Positions 43,911 to 50,916 of a stretch of 64,000 nt of DNA are shown here, in pieces. Source of the stretch: Faecalibacterium langellae (GTDB lineage: Bacteria; Bacillota; Clostridia; Oscillospirales; Ruminococcaceae); the NCBI RefSeq assembly GCF_002549775.1, contig NZ_NMTR01000011.1:1-64000 (forward strand), written 5' to 3'. Numbering within the stretch: the first letter of the stretch is position 1; each line of letters starts with the position of its first letter. The notes under the pieces were generated by a model that was not told the DNA's origin, did not search any database, and saw only the letters and a program-made list of their open reading frames with translations. The position numbers were made by a program, and so were the translations under genes.

Positions 43911-44993
43911 TTACTGGAACGTGTCGGTGCTGTGCAGTACCAGGTGCTGCACGCCCTGTTCGGCGGCAGACTGTTCCAGCGCGGTGCGGCTGTCGGCATC
44001 CAGCGCCTTGTCCGCCGTCACCAGCAGGTTGTCCATGCCCAGGGTCACAGCGGGCACATCCAGCGCCACGCTGCTGGTATTGCACTGGTCCAGCGTATAG
44101 CTGAACCACAATGTCACACTGCCTGCAAAGCGGCTCTGCAGGGCAGCGATGTCCGCCTTGAGCTGATCCGCACGGGAGACGCCGCCGGTCTCGCCGTAGT
44201 CCTGTTTGCGGCTGAGCTTCGGGAACTGGACATTGGTCAGGATCACCTGCTCAAAGCCCATGCCCTGCACTTCCGCCACCAGGTCGCCCACATACTCCAC
44301 TGCCGCAGCGGAGTAGGGGTTCAGCCAGGCATTGCCGTCCTTCTGGGCGTCCAGCCACAGGCCGTCGCCGTAATGGATGGCCATGCTGCGGTCGGTGCGG
44401 GAGGAGATGGGGTCCTTGAAGGCCGCGATCTGCGCCACCGGGATGATGCCCTCCTCCCGGAAGATGGCCGCGATGCGGGCCGGGTCGGCCGGGCTCTCCA
44501 CGATGCCGTTGGCAGCAGCCGCCACCGCAGACGCATAGTAGACCGTGCCGGATGCATCCTTCAGGGTCACGACGCCGTAGTCTGCGCCCGCAGCCTTCAG
44601 CTGCTGCGCCGCGGCACGGATGGCGGCGTCATCGGTCAGGGTGGTCACATCCACCTCGGCCCAGCTGCCGCCGGTGATGGCTTTGCCGTCCAGCTCCGGC
44701 TCTGCGGGCTCCGAGGCCGCCTGCGAGGAAGCTGCCTCGGCCGCAGCAGAGGAGGCCGCCGCTTCCGAAGACGCCGCGCGGGAGGCGGATTCCGCTTCCA
44801 GATCGCGGTTCTTCACCACAGTGTACCAGGTGTGGGTGGCCCAGTCCAGCACATGGGGTGCTGCCAGCCAGGCCGCGCCCAGCACCGCCAGCACCAGCAC
44901 CACGATGCCCACGCCCCGCTTGATGCGGGCGGTGCGGCTGTAGAAGCTGCGGTGGTAACGCTTGACCTTCGGCCTGCGTTTGTATCTTGCCAT
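43911..44993 (-). CDS. DUF4015-type putative glycoside hydrolase, membrane anchored
   Basis: 360 residues. A basic N-terminus and one membrane helix (GVGIVVLVLAVLGAAWLA) are followed by a Ser/Ala/Glu-rich linker (about 65-100) and a TIM-barrel-like domain with DUF4015 features: YGVVTLKDASGTVYYAS, IIPVAQIAAFKDPISSRTD, GNAWLNPYSAAAVEYVGDLV and GFEQVILTNVQFP. The usual acidic residue in F-D-Y-V-R-F-P is replaced (LTNVQFP), so activity may be altered. It lies 25 bases after the RnfA-like gene. Confidence 0.8.
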   Translation of the reverse strand: MARYKRRPKVKRYHRSFYSRTARIKRGVGIVVLVLAVLGAAWLAAPHVLDWATHTWYTVVKNRDLEAESASRAASSEAAASSAAAEAASSQAASEPAEPELDGKAITGGSWAEVDVTTLTDDAAIRAAAQQLKAAGADYGVVTLKDASGTVYYASAVAAAANGIVESPADPARIAAIFREEGIIPVAQIAAFKDPISSRTDRSMAIHYGDGLWLDAQKDGNAWLNPYSAAAVEYVGDLVAEVQGMGFEQVILTNVQFPKLSRKQDYGETGGVSRADQLKADIAALQSRFAGSVTLWFSYTLDQCNTSSVALDVPAVTLGMDNLLVTADKALDADSRTALEQSAAEQGVQHLVLHSTDTFQ

Positions 44994-45018: not shown

Positions 45019-45630
45019 TTACAGGATCACCGAATGTCCGGTAAAACCATAGATCGCCAGCGCCAGCACGCCGATGTAGACCAGCGTGATGGGCAGGCCC
45101 CGGAACGCTTCCGGGATGGCCTTGCTGCGCAGGCGGTGGCGGGCCTCCGTCACCAGCAGCACGGCCAGCACATAGCCAAGGCCGCTGCCAAAGCCGAAGC
45201 CCCAGCTCTGGCCCAGCGTAAAGCTCTGGGTGCGCTCCACCAGCACAGTGCCCAGCACACAGCTGTTCAGCGCGGCCAGCGGCAGGATGCGCAGCAGGGC
45301 GCTGCGGTGGGGCAGGCCCTTTGCCAGCCACAGCACCGCATACTCGGCAAAGCACACCACCGCGATGCTGGCGATATACACCAGCGGGCGCAGCTGGGCA
45401 CGGTTTGCCAGCGGGGCGATCCCGCTGCCCGCATACCAGGCGATGGGGGCCACCAGCACCTGGGTGATGCACAGCTGCAGGCCGAACAGCCAGCTGCTGG
45501 TGCGGTCGTCGCCCACCAGCTGCACCAGGCGCGAAACGCCCAGCGCACGGGTAAAGACGGCGTTCTGCGCAAACACCGCCAGCACGGCATAGCTGAAAAA
45601 TTCAGCCGAAGTGATCACAACGTCTCTCAT
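45019..45630 (-). CDS. RnfA/NqrE-like membrane protein lacking its normal Cys ligands
   Basis: 203 residues, about six helices. It matches RnfA in layout: RILPLAALNSCVLGTVL corresponds to F-L-P-L-I-T-T-N-C-A-V-L-G, and WGFGFGSGLGYVLAVLLVTEARHRL to the last helix. The N-terminal L-G-x-C-P-F segment is shortened to FTRALGVSRL, so the first cluster Cys is absent, and the second is displaced by one (NSC instead of NC). Its ATG overlaps the stop of the RnfE-like gene. A role in electron transfer is doubtful. Confidence 0.8.
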   Translation of the reverse strand: MRDVVITSAEFFSYAVLAVFAQNAVFTRALGVSRLVQLVGDDRTSSWLFGLQLCITQVLVAPIAWYAGSGIAPLANRAQLRPLVYIASIAVVCFAEYAVLWLAKGLPHRSALLRILPLAALNSCVLGTVLVERTQSFTLGQSWGFGFGSGLGYVLAVLLVTEARHRLRSKAIPEAFRGLPITLVYIGVLALAIYGFTGHSVIL

Positions 45631-46352
45631 TCTCCGTGCTCCGCCTCCTTCTGGTGATTCACGGCCACAAGGCTGCGGGCTTCCTTTTCCAGATATTCAC
45701 GGCGCTTTTTCGCCAGCGCACGCCAGACGGCGCACAGCACGCCCAGCACGATGAAGCCGCCCGCCGGCATGCTGGCCATGGGCAGCAGCGCCCGGCTGCC
45801 CACAGCAGCCCCGAACACGGTGCCCGCACTCAGCCATTCGCGCACGCAGCCCAGCAGCACCAGCAAAAGCGCATAGCCCACCGTGATGCGGAGGCCCTTG
45901 GACACCGCCTTGTGCACCGTCTCCTGCACGCGGCCGAAGCGGTAGGTCAAAAGCGGCTCCACCGTGAGCAGGGGCAGGTAGATGCCCAGGCTCAAAAGGC
46001 CCGTGCCGAACACGGCGTTCAGGATGGGGTACGCCGCCAGATACACCACCGCCGGGCTGAAGGCATAGATCAGTGCACGGGGCAGCAGCTTTTTCTGCAG
46101 TTCTTCCTGCGAGGGGTCTTCGTCCCGCAGGGGTACCAGACGGCTCAAAAGGCAGGCCACCACGCGGGAGGGCACCAGCAGCAGCGCCACGGCGGCGGCC
46201 AGCATCACGGCGTTCTGGCCGGAGGTGGCAAGCACCACCAGCGGGGCCAGGCCCATGCCCTGCATGACCACCGGGTTATTCAGAAATACGCGGTCGTGGT
46301 GGGCAAACTTGGCCGGGTCTTTTACGATGAGTTCTGCCGTCACTTTTCTCAT
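45627..46352 (-). CDS. RnfE/NqrD-like membrane protein lacking both Cys ligands
   Basis: 241 residues, several helices. NNPVVMQGMGLAPLVVLATSGQ aligns with the RnfE block N-P-V-x-V-Q-x-L-G-x-C-P-x-L-A-V, but the Cys is Ala (codon GCC). The second block, I-P-L-I-V-V-N-C, is YLPLLTVEPLLT, again without Cys. Start 46352 overlaps the RnfD-like stop codon (ATGA); a longer frame upstream is inside that gene. The protein ends with a basic cytoplasmic tail. Confidence 0.78.
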   Translation of the reverse strand: MRKVTAELIVKDPAKFAHHDRVFLNNPVVMQGMGLAPLVVLATSGQNAVMLAAAVALLLVPSRVVACLLSRLVPLRDEDPSQEELQKKLLPRALIYAFSPAVVYLAAYPILNAVFGTGLLSLGIYLPLLTVEPLLTYRFGRVQETVHKAVSKGLRITVGYALLLVLLGCVREWLSAGTVFGAAVGSRALLPMASMPAGGFIVLGVLCAVWRALAKKRREYLEKEARSLVAVNHQKEAEHGE

Positions 46353-47368
46353 TGTGCGGCCTCCTTTCCCGGCCCGGGCTGCCGATGGGTCATGCGGTAC
46401 AGGCCCGTCTCGGTGCGGTCGATCCAGGCCGAAATGCTGTTGACCACCAGCAGTGCAAAGCACACGCCGGTCTCATACACGCCATAGTAGCGGAAGCCCA
46501 TGGACACAAGGCCCACCAGCACGCCGTACAGCACCCGGCCCATCCGGTGGTGGGCACAGGTGTAGGGCTCGTTGAGCAGGAACACCGCGCTGAACAGGAT
46601 GGCACCGGTGAGCAGCTCGTCCCGCATGCACTGCAGACGGGGCAGGGCGTTCGTCAGCACGGCGCTGTCGGCCAGGCCTGCCTGCCGCGGGAAGAAGAAG
46701 GCGATGAGTGCACAGGTGGCCAGAAAGCTCACGGATGCCGACATGTGGGCATCCTTCTGCGTCCACAAAAACAGCCCGCAGGCCAGAATGATCAGGGCTG
46801 CGCCGGTGCCCATGGGGGCGGCATATTCGCCCAGCCCCAGCGCCAGCGAACCGATGTTCAGCATACCGCCGCTGCGCAGGGTGTCCTCGATGGCGCTGGA
46901 TATCGGCACCGACGAGGCATCCCACAGCGGGATGGCGGTGTAGGGCTGCGGATAGCGGAACACCTGTTCCGGCCAGGACACCGCTGCCACCACATAGCCC
47001 ACAGCGGCAGGGTTAAAGGGGTAGCTGCCGTAGCCGCCGAAGATCTCCTTGCCGATGAGCACACCGGCCAGCACCGCCGCCACCAGCACATAGATGTCCA
47101 CCGTGGCGGGCATGAGCAGGGCGATGACAAGGCCGAAGCTCTCGTTGGAAAAATCGCTGGCCTGATACACGCGGCGGCGCAGCAGCGACACCAGACGGTC
47201 GCACAAATTTCCGGTGAGCACCGCGATGCCGCACAGCAGCAGCGGGCGCAGACCGTACAGGTAGCAGGACATGCACAGCAGCGGAATGGCCATAAAGCAG
47301 ATGTGCTTGTAGTAGCGGCCGGTCTTCTGCAGCTGGGCTTCCTGCTCTTGGATCAAAGCTTCATCCAT
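46349..47368 (-). CDS. RnfD/NqrB-like membrane protein lacking the flavinylation motif
   Basis: 339 residues, about nine helices. Family blocks are clear: SFGLVIALLMPATVDIYVLVAAVLAGVLIGKEIFGG and YPFNPAAVGYVVAAVSWP. The covalent FMN site, normally D-A-x-S-G-A-T-P-L, reads DASSVPISSA, without the acceptor Thr. I start at ATG 47368 (MDEALIQEQ), preceded by GAGAGG; a GTG three codons earlier is possible. It lies 12 bases after rpe. rnfC, rnfG and rnfB are absent from the cluster. Confidence 0.82.
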   Translation of the reverse strand: MDEALIQEQEAQLQKTGRYYKHICFMAIPLLCMSCYLYGLRPLLLCGIAVLTGNLCDRLVSLLRRRVYQASDFSNESFGLVIALLMPATVDIYVLVAAVLAGVLIGKEIFGGYGSYPFNPAAVGYVVAAVSWPEQVFRYPQPYTAIPLWDASSVPISSAIEDTLRSGGMLNIGSLALGLGEYAAPMGTGAALIILACGLFLWTQKDAHMSASVSFLATCALIAFFFPRQAGLADSAVLTNALPRLQCMRDELLTGAILFSAVFLLNEPYTCAHHRMGRVLYGVLVGLVSMGFRYYGVYETGVCFALLVVNSISAWIDRTETGLYRMTHRQPGPGKEAAQ

Positions 47369-47380
47369 ACACGGCACCTC

Positions 47381-48031
47381 TCAAAGGGCGGCAAGGCGCT
47401 GCACGGCTGCAGCCGGGTCGGCCGCGCCGAACACGGCGCTGCCCGCCACCAGAATGTCCACACCGGCGGCCACGCACAGGGGTGCGGTGGTGCTGTCCAC
47501 ACCGCCGTCCACTTCCAGCAGGTAGGCAAGGCCGCGCTTTTCCCGCTCGGCCTTGAGCCAGGAGAGCTTCTCCAGCGCCGAGGGCATGAACTTCTGCCCG
47601 CCGAAGCCGGGCTCCACGCTCATCACCAGCACAAGGTCCAGCTGGTCCAGATACGGTGCCAGCGCTTCCGGCTGAGTGCCGGGCTTGATGGTCAGGCCCA
47701 CCTTGCAGCCCAGCGCCTTCACGGCGTCGATGGTCTGCTGGATGTCGTCTTCGCACTCGAGGTGGAAGTTGTACAGGGTCGCACCCGCCTTGATGAAGGC
47801 TTCGGCATACTGCAGCGGGTGGCTGATCATCAGATGCACGTCATAGAAGGCATCGGGCAGGTTCTTGTGCAGGCTCTTGAGCACCGGCACGCCAAAGCTG
47901 ATGTTGGGCACGAAGTGGCCGTCCATCACGTCGTAATGCAGCATCTGCGCACCGGCGTCCAGCACCATGCGGCAGTCCGCACCCAGTTTGCCAAAATCGG
48001 CCGAAAGGATCGAAGGACTTACGATTGCCAT
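47381..48031 (-). CDS. rpe: Ribulose-phosphate 3-epimerase
   Basis: Interconverts ribulose-5-phosphate and xylulose-5-phosphate in the pentose phosphate pathway. The 216-residue TIM barrel shows PSILSADFGKLG, MLHYDVMDGHFVPNISFG, VHLMISHPLQYAEAF, MSVEPGFGGQKF and LEVDGGVDSTTAP, with the catalytic Asp and metal-binding His/Asp. First gene of the operon that continues into the Rnf-like trio. Ribosome binding site (GGAG) is rather far from the start. Confidence 0.95.
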   Translation of the reverse strand: MAIVSPSILSADFGKLGADCRMVLDAGAQMLHYDVMDGHFVPNISFGVPVLKSLHKNLPDAFYDVHLMISHPLQYAEAFIKAGATLYNFHLECEDDIQQTIDAVKALGCKVGLTIKPGTQPEALAPYLDQLDLVLVMSVEPGFGGQKFMPSALEKLSWLKAEREKRGLAYLLEVDGGVDSTTAPLCVAAGVDILVAGSAVFGAADPAAAVQRLAAL

Positions 48032-48697: not shown

Positions 48698-50218
48698 TCA
48701 TTCAACAGGCTTCATGCTGGCGGGGTCTTCCACGGTGGGTTCGCCGCCCGCTTCGTCCGGCAGGCGCTTCATGCCGCCGGGGTTCGGGGCCACGGTGGGC
48801 AGGGTGAACACGAATTTGCACCACTCGCCCTGTTCGCTCTCCACCCGGATCTGGCCGCCGGAAAGGTTCACCAGTACCTTGCAGATGTTCAGGCCAAGGC
48901 CTGCGCCCCGGGCGTGCAGGCCGCGGGAGCGGTCCTCTTTGTAGAACCGCTGGAACACATAGGGCAGCGCCTCCGGGCTGATGCCCTGGCCGGAGTTCCA
49001 GATGGAGATCTCGGCCTCCGGGCCCAGCTTTTCCACATGGAAGCGGATGGTGCCGCCCGCCGGGGTGAACTTGATAGCGTTGTCCAGCAGGTTGTAGGCC
49101 ACCTGATGGATCAGGTCCGGGTCCGCGTAGACCAGCACCTTTTCGTCCATGGTCAGGCCTTCGATCTCGATCATGCCGTCGTTGATGCGCTGCTCGGCCG
49201 AGAGCGCCACGCCGGTGAGGGTCTCCCAGATGTTGAACATCCGGGCGTTGACCTGATATTCGCCGCTTTCCAGCTTGGAAAGGTCCAGCATGTTCTGGAT
49301 GAGCCGCGCCAGACGTCCCGTCTCCTCGCTGACCAGCTGCAGGTAGTGGTTCTGCATGTCCGGCGGGATGGTGCCGTCCAGAATGCCGTCCACAAAGCCC
49401 TTGATGGTGGTCATGGGGGTGCGCAGCTCATGGGCGATGTTACCCATGAACTGGCCCCGGGAGTTGTCGTTGTTCTGGATGTTCTCGGCCATGCGGTTGA
49501 AGGTGCGGGCAAGGTCGGCCACTTCGCCTTCGCCCTCCACGCCCTCGACGCGCACCGAAAGATCGCCGCCGCCAAAGCGCTGGGCGGCATCCGTCACCTT
49601 CTGCAGCGGGTCGGTCAGGCTGCGCATCAAAAGCTTTGTCAGCAGGCTGGCGCACAGCAGCATCACGCAGGCAGAAAGCAGGAAGTTGGACCAGAACTGC
49701 TGCTTGAACTGGGTCAGCTGGTTGCCGGAGGAGCACAGGAACACATAGCCGCTGGGCTGGCCGTGTTCGTTGCACATCTCGCTGACCGTGATGTAGCTTT
49801 TCTCGCTCAGCACGCCGTCCAGCGTGCCGAACACATGGTAGTAATCCGGGCCGGAAGCGTCGATCTTCTCCATCATCTCGCCCGGCACGGCGTCGGCTTC
49901 CAGCTTGTCCGGGCTGGATGCGATCATCACATTGCCGTCGTTGTCCGTAAAGAACAGATAGGCTTCGGCGCTCTCGCCGATGATCTCAAGCTTTGTGCTC
50001 AAAGCATCCAGCTCGTCGCCTTCCGGCAGCGCGGCCTGCTGGGCCAGATACTGGGCCGTGCGCTGGGTGACGCCCACCACCTGATCCAGCGTTTCGTAGC
50101 GGTCCTTGGCAAAGTAGTTCTTGAACAGCACCCACTCGGAAGCGCCCATCAGCACGATGCCCAGCACCATGAGGGTGGACACCAGCGAGAAGAACGCGGT
50201 GGAAACACTTTTGCGCAT
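48698..50218 (-). CDS. Sensor histidine kinase
   Basis: Membrane kinase, 506 residues: first helix (STLMVLGIVLMGASEWVLF), an extracytoplasmic sensor of about 130 residues (PAS/Cache-like, AYLFFTDNDGNVMIAS), second helix, HAMP (SLTDPLQKVTDAAQRFGGGDLSV), HisKA with FMGNIAHELRTPMTTIKGF (phospho-His in H-E-L-R-T-P) and a HATPase domain (NLLDNAIKFTPAGG, ARGAGLGLNICK). A Pro/Glu-rich tail ends it. Its ATG overlaps the stop of the response regulator gene (TAATG). Signal unknown. Confidence 0.95.
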   Translation of the reverse strand: MRKSVSTAFFSLVSTLMVLGIVLMGASEWVLFKNYFAKDRYETLDQVVGVTQRTAQYLAQQAALPEGDELDALSTKLEIIGESAEAYLFFTDNDGNVMIASSPDKLEADAVPGEMMEKIDASGPDYYHVFGTLDGVLSEKSYITVSEMCNEHGQPSGYVFLCSSGNQLTQFKQQFWSNFLLSACVMLLCASLLTKLLMRSLTDPLQKVTDAAQRFGGGDLSVRVEGVEGEGEVADLARTFNRMAENIQNNDNSRGQFMGNIAHELRTPMTTIKGFVDGILDGTIPPDMQNHYLQLVSEETGRLARLIQNMLDLSKLESGEYQVNARMFNIWETLTGVALSAEQRINDGMIEIEGLTMDEKVLVYADPDLIHQVAYNLLDNAIKFTPAGGTIRFHVEKLGPEAEISIWNSGQGISPEALPYVFQRFYKEDRSRGLHARGAGLGLNICKVLVNLSGGQIRVESEQGEWCKFVFTLPTVAPNPGGMKRLPDEAGGEPTVEDPASMKPVE

Positions 50219-50916
50219 TACTGACGCACCTCGAACTTATAGCCCACGCCCCACACGGTCTTCAGCTCCCACTTGTCGGAAGCCCCGGCCAGCTTTTCGC
50301 GCAGGCGCTTGACGTGCACGTCGATGGTGCGGCTGTCGCCGTAATACTCAAAGCCCCACACCTCGTCCAGCAGCTGGTCGCGGGTGTAAACGCGGTTCGG
50401 GTGGGAGGCCAGGCAGTTGAGCAGTTCCAGCTCCTTGGGGGGAGCCTCCACCACCTTGCCCTTCACCCGCAGCTCGTAGCTGTTCATATCCAGCCGCAGG
50501 TTGTCGAATTCAATGACGCCCTCGGTGCTCTCGGCCGCAGCCGTGGTGGTCTGGCAGCGGCGCAGCACCGCTTTGATGCGGGCCACCACTTCCTTGGCGT
50601 CAAAGGGCTTGACCATGTAGTCGTCGGCACCCAGCTCCAGGCCCAGCACTTTATCAAAGGTCTCGCCCTTGGCGGTGAGCATCATCACCGGGGTGTTGCC
50701 TGCCTTGCGGATGCGGCGGCACACTTCCAGGCCGTCCATGCGGGGCATCATCACGTCCAGCAGCACCATGTCGGGTTTGACCTGATTGAACTTCTCCAGG
50801 CCTTCCTCGCCGTCGTTGGCCACCGTGACCTGATAGCCCTCCTTGGTCAGGTACAGCCGCAGCAGTTCGCAGATGTTGGTATCGTCGTCCACGACGAGGA
50901 TCTTTTCGTTCGCCAT
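50218..50916 (-). CDS. OmpR-family response regulator
   Basis: 232 residues. Receiver domain with KILVVDDD, phospho-acceptor Asp in MVLLDVMMP and the KPF motif (DYMVKPFDAKE); C-terminal winged HTH (ELELLNCLASHPNRVYTRDQLLDEVWGFEY ... RTIDVHVKRLREKL). It is first in the pair and should be activated by the downstream kinase. GGGAGGAAA lies before the start. Upstream there is a TATAAT on the minus strand (near 50988-50993). Confidence 0.95.
   Translation of the reverse strand: MANEKILVVDDDTNICELLRLYLTKEGYQVTVANDGEEGLEKFNQVKPDMVLLDVMMPRMDGLEVCRRIRKAGNTPVMMLTAKGETFDKVLGLELGADDYMVKPFDAKEVVARIKAVLRRCQTTTAAAESTEGVIEFDNLRLDMNSYELRVKGKVVEAPPKELELLNCLASHPNRVYTRDQLLDEVWGFEYYGDSRTIDVHVKRLREKLAGASDKWELKTVWGVGYKFEVRQ

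Follow-up and report, generated by a model that had tools for sequence, protein, structure and literature searches.

Why would a bacterium keep three subunits of the Rnf membrane core apart from the rest of the complex? The question is raised by a stretch of 64,000 nucleotides of Faecalibacterium langellae DNA (contig NZ_NMTR01000011.1 of assembly GCF_002549775.1, positions 1 to 64,000; the whole stretch is called the window below). On its minus strand, at positions 45019-47368, lie three genes encoding relatives of RnfD, RnfE and RnfA (D, E and A, or the trio). An initial annotation, made from the letters alone, had described three overlapping genes that lack the redox ligands of Rnf. We found that the trio is an extra set of these subunits, that its cluster and flavin mononucleotide (FMN) attachment sites have been altered throughout a family of related loci, and that it probably serves a purpose other than electron transfer.

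Redox ligands of the D, E and A proteins

The three genes overlap by ATGA at both the D/E and the E/A junction, as had been noted from the letters, and their products match Pfam families well above the cut-offs, D matching PF03116 and E and A matching PF02508:

46349..47368, minus strand: D, RnfD/NqrB-like membrane protein without a flavinylation motif (PF03116, 185.5 bits; AlphaFold2 (AF2) model; motif search)
45627..46352, minus strand: E, RnfE-like membrane protein with the ligand Cys replaced by Ala and Pro (PF02508, 88.8 bits; aligned to 7zc6_E and 9eri_E)
45019..45630, minus strand: A, RnfA-like membrane protein with one ligand Cys replaced by Ser and the second Cys shifted by one (PF02508, 82.1 bits; aligned to 9eri_A and 7zc6_A)

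With the NCBIfam profiles for rnfD, rnfE and rnfA, the trio proteins yielded 136, 55 and 79 bits, below the cut-offs of 207, 213 and 229. The control proteins, D, E and A of the genome's own canonical set, scored 282, 225 and 228 bits, so that D and E pass and A is about 1 bit short. The Pfam matches are strong, yet the NCBIfam scores remain below the cut-offs: the trio proteins are related to Rnf subunits without being typical of them.

The genome is 99.99% complete and carries a complete rnfCDGEAB operon on another contig (C55). A profile search at E ≤ 0.001 returned four PF02508 and two PF03116 matches, which are accounted for by the trio (contig C77) and by this operon. Since the operon has its own D, E and A, the trio is an extra paralogue of these subunits. 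For the same reason, the idea that the remainder of an rnf operon elsewhere shares a single D/E/A set supplied by the trio, which the initial annotation had named as fatal to its proposal, is ruled out. The RnfG of the canonical operon (L007, G000:C55:16000-26000) scored only 67 bits against TIGR01947 (cut-off 102), a cut-off passed in only 12 of 148 genomes of the family.

Residues are numbered below as in Acetobacterium woodii Rnf, where the ligands are C25 and C113 of RnfA, C25 and C108 of RnfE, T156 of RnfD for FMN, and N123 and D249 of RnfD for riboflavin (accessible part of PMC11889175). In alignments with the solved RnfE chains, the ligand Cys correspond to Ala (GLAP under GMCP) and Pro (VEP under VNC) in the window E. 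In A, the first Cys is Ser (LGVS under LGIC), and the second site holds Ser, followed directly by a Cys (NSC under NCA). In D, the motif search yielded no [ST]GA[ST]- or SSATP-like motif near the FMN site; two alignments assign the flavinyl Thr column to different residues within SSAIED, shortly after the DASSVPIS quoted in the initial annotation. The losses described there are confirmed.

The same sites were counted in the D proteins of 90 non-canonical loci and in the neighbouring E and A, omitting loci without the gene (87 rows for E, 86 for A). Near copies are present among the 90 (13 named loci, of which 9 are titled Faecalibacterium). Cys was absent from the C25 (0/87) and C108 (0/87) columns of E and from the C25 column of A (0/86), while the C113 column of A had it in 44/86 rows, as a lone Cys. 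Canonical rows had Cys at all four columns (4/4). At no locus of the 90 did a Cys lie within 4 residues of more than two of the four ligand sites, and two loci (L064 and L066) carry [ST]GA[ST] at most 25 residues from the FMN site; SSATP is present in 4/5 canonical rows. On these counts, a Cys set kept in shifted positions is rejected for all loci, and a shifted FMN-type motif for all but these two. The claim about the FMN site relies on the motif search and not on a column count, as the alignment is loose there (L129 and L130 are out of register). Judging by the ligand columns, none of the 86 loci with contiguous D-E-A could ligate a cluster as Rnf does.

The riboflavin ligands of D are better preserved: over the 90 loci, N123 was kept in 57, and D249 was Asp in 53 and Glu in 27. 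The window D has Asn and Glu, respectively.

The AF2 model of D (predicted local distance difference test score, pLDDT, 90.8) has RnfD and NqrB as the closest solved chains (Z 31-37), while the ammonium and urea channels are matched with Z of about 11-13 at a sequence identity of ~10%. Some residues of D are typical of the trio. In particular, Pro and Arg of the FFPRQ motif are present in 69/80 and 69/79 trio proteins, respectively, compared with 0/5 and 1/5 canonical ones. Such residues point to a new role and not to loss alone. Of the 87 E rows, 69 have Arg at the R67 column and 51 have Glu at the E115 column; the window E has Arg and Gly, and the canonical RnfE of the same genome has His at R67.

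Conservation and neighbours of the trio

The ratio of nonsynonymous to synonymous substitution rates (dN/dS) was calculated for the window and eight Faecalibacterium loci (36 pairs, no control gene). Between the window and its nearest relative, it was 0.15 for D, 0.24 for E and 0.14 for A; over all pairs, the medians were 0.28-0.30 and the ranges 0.08-0.59, 0.10-0.85 and 0.07-0.60, respectively. Among the D matches listed, we found no internal stops except for one TGA (genome G034).

The trio is flanked by two other genes:

47381..48031, minus strand: rpe, ribulose-phosphate 3-epimerase, upstream neighbour of D (TIGR01163, 246 bits, above the cut-off)
43911..44993, minus strand: DUF4015 protein gene, downstream neighbour of A (PF13200, 58 bits)

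The gap between rpe and D is 12 bases, the gap between A and the DUF4015 gene is 25 bases, and a DUF1015 gene follows downstream. This spacing looks like that of one transcript, rpe-D-E-A-DUF4015, probably including the DUF4015 gene. A promoter and terminator scan of 43.7-48.2 kb revealed no promoter and two terminator-like sites, which is the chance level. We found no match to rnfC, rnfG or rnfB between positions 36 and 56 kb in the window (the G profile being built from a single sequence), in line with the earlier observation that none lies nearby. The model of the DUF4015 protein consists of a long N-terminal helix and a TIM-like domain with a glycosidase fold, close to 4s1a, Cwp19 (5oq3) and PgaB, and suggests an envelope-facing partner, with no activity implied. 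Its invariant positions in 25 aligned rows are K145, D194, W213, W223, P226 and P258. Further upstream, rpe is preceded by a response regulator and histidine kinase pair (50218-50916 and 48698-50218; named by reading alone), and such a pair recurs before rpe in relatives, sometimes with an HtrA-like gene.

To see how widespread the trio is, we scored 148 genomes sampled from the same family with a profile of 28 trio D proteins. In 99 of them, the best match exceeded 260 bits and was classified as the trio type; the neighbourhoods read for 70 of the 99 were of the trio type in every case, and the best-scoring canonical D among the loci read had 253.9 bits (L139). Below the threshold, eight of ten lower-scoring genomes also show rpe-D-E-A-DUF4015 (L101, L103-L107, L109 and L112). 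L091 has D alone, yet falls inside the trio clade of the tree described below. In genome G108, a strongly diverged D (134 bits; L108:8364-9668) lies between rpe and the DUF4015 gene, where neither E nor A was found; the cluster may have been reduced further there.

Trios of this kind, without G or B, are common in the family. Over the 90 loci, D-E-A is contiguous in 86 (85 by script and L085), rpe is upstream of D in 87, and the DUF4015 gene is downstream of A in 75. Single-sequence profiles gave no RnfG or RnfB match in the cluster at any of the 90; the same G profile recovers G in 46 of 51 canonical-type loci. Taken with dN/dS below 1, the conserved gene order bears out the initial statement that the frames are intact and not decaying. 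In 36/90 loci, a divergent MecA-like gene lies between rpe and the gene that follows it, D or the RnfC-like gene considered below (e.g. L084:9392-9961; PF05389 in the one scanned).

The class and phylum were sampled by draws of 291 and 299 genomes, respectively, of which the best 30 loci each, 58 in all, were read. Seven of these 58 best loci are of the trio type with the same gene order, in this family and one other (L134-L137). The remaining 51 are canonical. Those lacking a G match are L164, L171, L186, L187 and L189, with L171 and L187 cut short, and the pattern for the FMN-type motif was unmatched in L146, L148, L173, L179, L182 and L189.

A tree of 105 D proteins placed the trio and 21 canonical D on opposite sides of a branch with support of 100 in the Shimodaira-Hasegawa-like approximate likelihood ratio test (SH-aLRT). 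Ten of 95 loci were left out of the tree, eight as near copies (L009-L013, L015, L018 and L019) and two as odd (L102 and L108), and four trio-type and 16 of the 51 canonical-type loci from the class and phylum searches were added. The closest named locus by D belongs to Faecalibacterium sp. I4-3-84 (89% identical). The trio belongs to an old, conserved family of paralogues of the Rnf membrane core.

RnfC-like partners and genomes without RnfG

In 26 of the 90 loci, an RnfC-like gene, here called C', directly precedes D; the other 64, including the window, have D-E-A without C'. C' retains the eight cluster Cys of two 4Fe-4S motifs in all 13 aligned rows, with matches to Fer4 in 13/13 and SLBB in 11/13. 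RnfC_N (PF13375) was not among its matches, and the GLGGAGFPT loop was absent from 17 rows. PF01512 was matched in 11/13, but weakly (best E 1e-8, compared with 3e-40 in canonical RnfC); the canonical RnfC of the window genome has 138 bits for PF01512 and 101 bits for PF13375. As the loop is lost, RnfC_N is unmatched and PF01512 is weak, no site for FMN or for reduced nicotinamide adenine dinucleotide (NADH) is apparent in C'.

The presence of C' coincides with that of the riboflavin site: N123 and D/E249 are both kept in 26/26 loci with C' and in 28/64 loci without it. On the tree, the site is constant in the rows with C', while those lacking C' require 14 changes or more. The association is not amenable to a statistical test, since C' was lost only once or twice independently; it is suggestive of a tie between the loss of C' and the drift of the riboflavin site. 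The pattern is compatible with a residual electron link joining C' and riboflavin, given up by the lineage of the window. The ancestral unit was probably rpe-C'-D-E-A-DUF4015, with C' lost on the Faecalibacterium side, a single clade that comprises 51 rows and has support of 89 (not starred). The initial description of the trio as being without redox ligands therefore stands for the cluster Cys set and the FMN motif, but is too strong for the riboflavin site, as the window keeps N123 and has Glu at 249, and deep relatives keep both ligands together with an RnfC-like 4Fe-4S protein.

No RnfG match was found in 24 of the 148 genomes, and of the 20 listed, 14 have an RnfD-like match. Thirteen of these 14 were searched for PF02508, leaving out G059 (with an RnfD-like match and no RnfG match) and the four genomes outside the 20; ten hold two PF02508 genes and three hold one. 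In nine of the ten, both genes lie at the trio, the exception being G102, with A on another contig. RnfD-like matches are single in ten of the 13 genomes and number two to three in G022, G037 and G128; G037 also holds a second RnfC-like match.

Most genomes lacking RnfG are incomplete metagenome-assembled genomes; only G068, G087 and G102 are more than 90% complete. In these three (94-97% complete, 0.7-1.0 Mb), neither RnfG nor ApbE was matched, whereas D and E are kept. G102 (1.0 Mb) carries C'-D-E on one contig and A next to rpe on another. In G068 and G087 (0.7 and 0.9 Mb), the search recovered D and one isolated E, but neither A nor C'; this E may perhaps be homodimeric. It is located beside genes for elongation factor P and an AroE-like protein (L190 and L191, G068:C4 and G087:C2; named by reading alone), with D elsewhere. 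No ApbE match was found in G037, G076, G120 and G121 either. ApbE is still present in G001, G022, G043, G052 and G079, so in these five canonical Rnf may be missing only from the assemblies. Since D and E persist in G068, G087 and G102, the simplest reading, from few genomes, is that the trio has a function needing neither canonical Rnf nor flavinylation.

Possible functions and relation to known systems

The explanation that we prefer, at odds not far short of even, is that D-E-A is a paralogue of the Rnf membrane core cut off from electron transfer and acting as a putative conduit for ions or solutes, a role that we infer and that the initial annotation had suggested. With the FMN-Thr motif and the [2Fe-2S] Cys set lost and no RnfG or RnfB encoded in the cluster, the E/A pair, corresponding to the Na+ path of Rnf, and the Amt/urea-channel-like D might form a redox-uncoupled passage for ions or small solutes, perhaps acting together with the glycosidase-fold DUF4015 protein. 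In deep branches, C', an iron-sulphur protein located at the riboflavin site of D, may continue to gate this passage or to sense the redox state; the Faecalibacterium lineage would have lost C'. The broader proposal, that the family is a non-redox branch of Rnf/Nqr, a putative stand-alone transporter or channel serving the envelope with DUF4015 in 99 of 148 sampled genomes of one gut family, seems to us a reasonable possibility, though not the probable outcome.

In favour of a conduit, RnfA and RnfE constitute the Na+ path in A. woodii, and the movement of this path is driven by the cluster (accessible part of PMC11889175). Several observations weigh against it. The Na+ route of Rnf itself is altered in the trio, as E88 of RnfA, a residue of the Na+ gate, is lost in 86/86 rows and E115 of RnfE is Gly in the window. 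The similarity of D to the Amt and urea transporter (UT) fold is general to RnfD/NqrB (accessible part of PMC12174285) and indicates no function for D. The link with DUF4015 is one of synteny only, and some pairs of E genes reach the dN/dS of 0.85 given above. Finally, N123 occurs together with an acidic residue at 249 in 54/90 loci, so bound riboflavin, and hence some redox role, may have been retained.

This last point leads to the strongest alternative, which we consider unlikely overall, if far from negligible: a shortened redox device, in which the ancestral C'-D-E-A moves electrons only between the two 4Fe-4S clusters of C' and the riboflavin of D, either to serve some partner or to sense the redox state. 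E and A would then be a scaffold, and the Faecalibacterium branch a later reduced form. The corresponding cofactors are neighbours in the electron path of Rnf, which agrees with PMC11889175 (accessible part). The intact cluster Cys, the Fer4 and SLBB matches and the coincidence of C' with the riboflavin ligands, both in counts and on the tree, speak for such a device. It is less compatible with the lack of an apparent NADH/FMN site in C' and with the 64 loci without C', in which redox need not be the common job; moreover, the association is not replicated, C' having been lost once or twice.

The trio could also be a regulator or an assembly helper of canonical Rnf, e.g. a decoy sequestering its subunits. 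Homology permits mixed complexes, and many genomes of the family have two RnfD-like matches; this role is nevertheless improbable, as genomes without RnfG keep trio genes, the RnfD-like match being the single one in ten of the 13. Slightly less credit still is due to a second Rnf isoform, in which D-E-A borrows RnfC, G and B from the operon on C55. Both sets do occur in one genome, and the accessible part of PMC10781979 (2024) groups two operons of F. duncaniae A2-165, rnfDEA (CG447_09840-830) and rnfCDGEAB, as putative rnf operons encoding NADH:ferredoxin oxidoreductase. On the other hand, A. woodii mutants in the Cys of the membrane cluster, lost in the trio, show no growth and no ferredoxin (Fd):NAD activity, and the same holds for RnfD N123A/D249A (PMC11889175, accessible part); besides, some genomes in which neither RnfG nor ApbE was matched still hold D and E. 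That the trio is a decaying relic or an assembly artefact, as the lost cofactor ligands and the loss of the RnfC-like accessory gene in this clade could suggest, is scarcely credible, decay being ruled out by dN/dS below 1, the near-absence of internal stops among the D matches listed (one TGA, in G034) and the gene order kept in 86/90 loci.

The rnfDEA operon of F. duncaniae is very likely this trio, judging from the genus and the gene order, not from a sequence comparison. If so, the ligand losses argue against counting it as an rnf operon, and energy models of Faecalibacterium are affected, as the accessible part of PMC10781979 credits rnfDEA together with rnfCDGEAB for the proton gradient. 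Our literature search, which covered few subscription journals, found no account of the lost ligands or of this family, and rnfDEA named only in that paper; a search aimed at DUF4015 gave no matching paper. More generally, calling a protein of these gut bacteria RnfD, RnfE or RnfA does not by itself imply an Rnf complex. The coupling of redox to ion transport in Rnf/Nqr is still debated, and a natural core without the [2Fe-2S] and FMN sites asks whether the core alone carries ions.

Among known systems, the trio resembles Rnf (RnfABCDGE; A. woodii 9eri, C. tetanomorphum 7zc6 and A. vinelandii 8ahx) in having homologous D, E and A, in the shared fold of D, and in the gene order, which is that of CDGEAB minus G. 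It differs in lacking the [2Fe-2S] Cys set, the flavinyl-Thr motif, G or B in the cluster and an intact RnfC, and in its separate side of the tree. Na+-NQR has homologous membrane subunits (NqrBDE) and is held to stem from a duplicated rnf operon after the loss of rnfB (accessible part of PMC4014512). It keeps flavin and [2Fe-2S] and has gained NqrF, whereas the trio has lost the FMN and [2Fe-2S] ligand residues and gained no visible electron input (no genome search aimed at NqrF was made). The AmtB/UT channels share a related fold with D, as with RnfD/NqrB generally, and have no counterpart of E and A. The two-subunit Nqr/Rnf-like systems also possess an NqrB/RnfD-like subunit without the flavinyl Thr, but there it is fused to a PF00175 NAD-binding domain and accompanied by an FMN-bind subunit (accessible parts of PMC8238504 and PMC11334425); the trio has neither, the window D matching PF03116 alone, and has E and A instead. 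The loss of the RnfD Thr alone is thus already known from these systems (PMC11334425, accessible part); the present case stands apart in that all three proteins are affected by losses and that E and A are kept.

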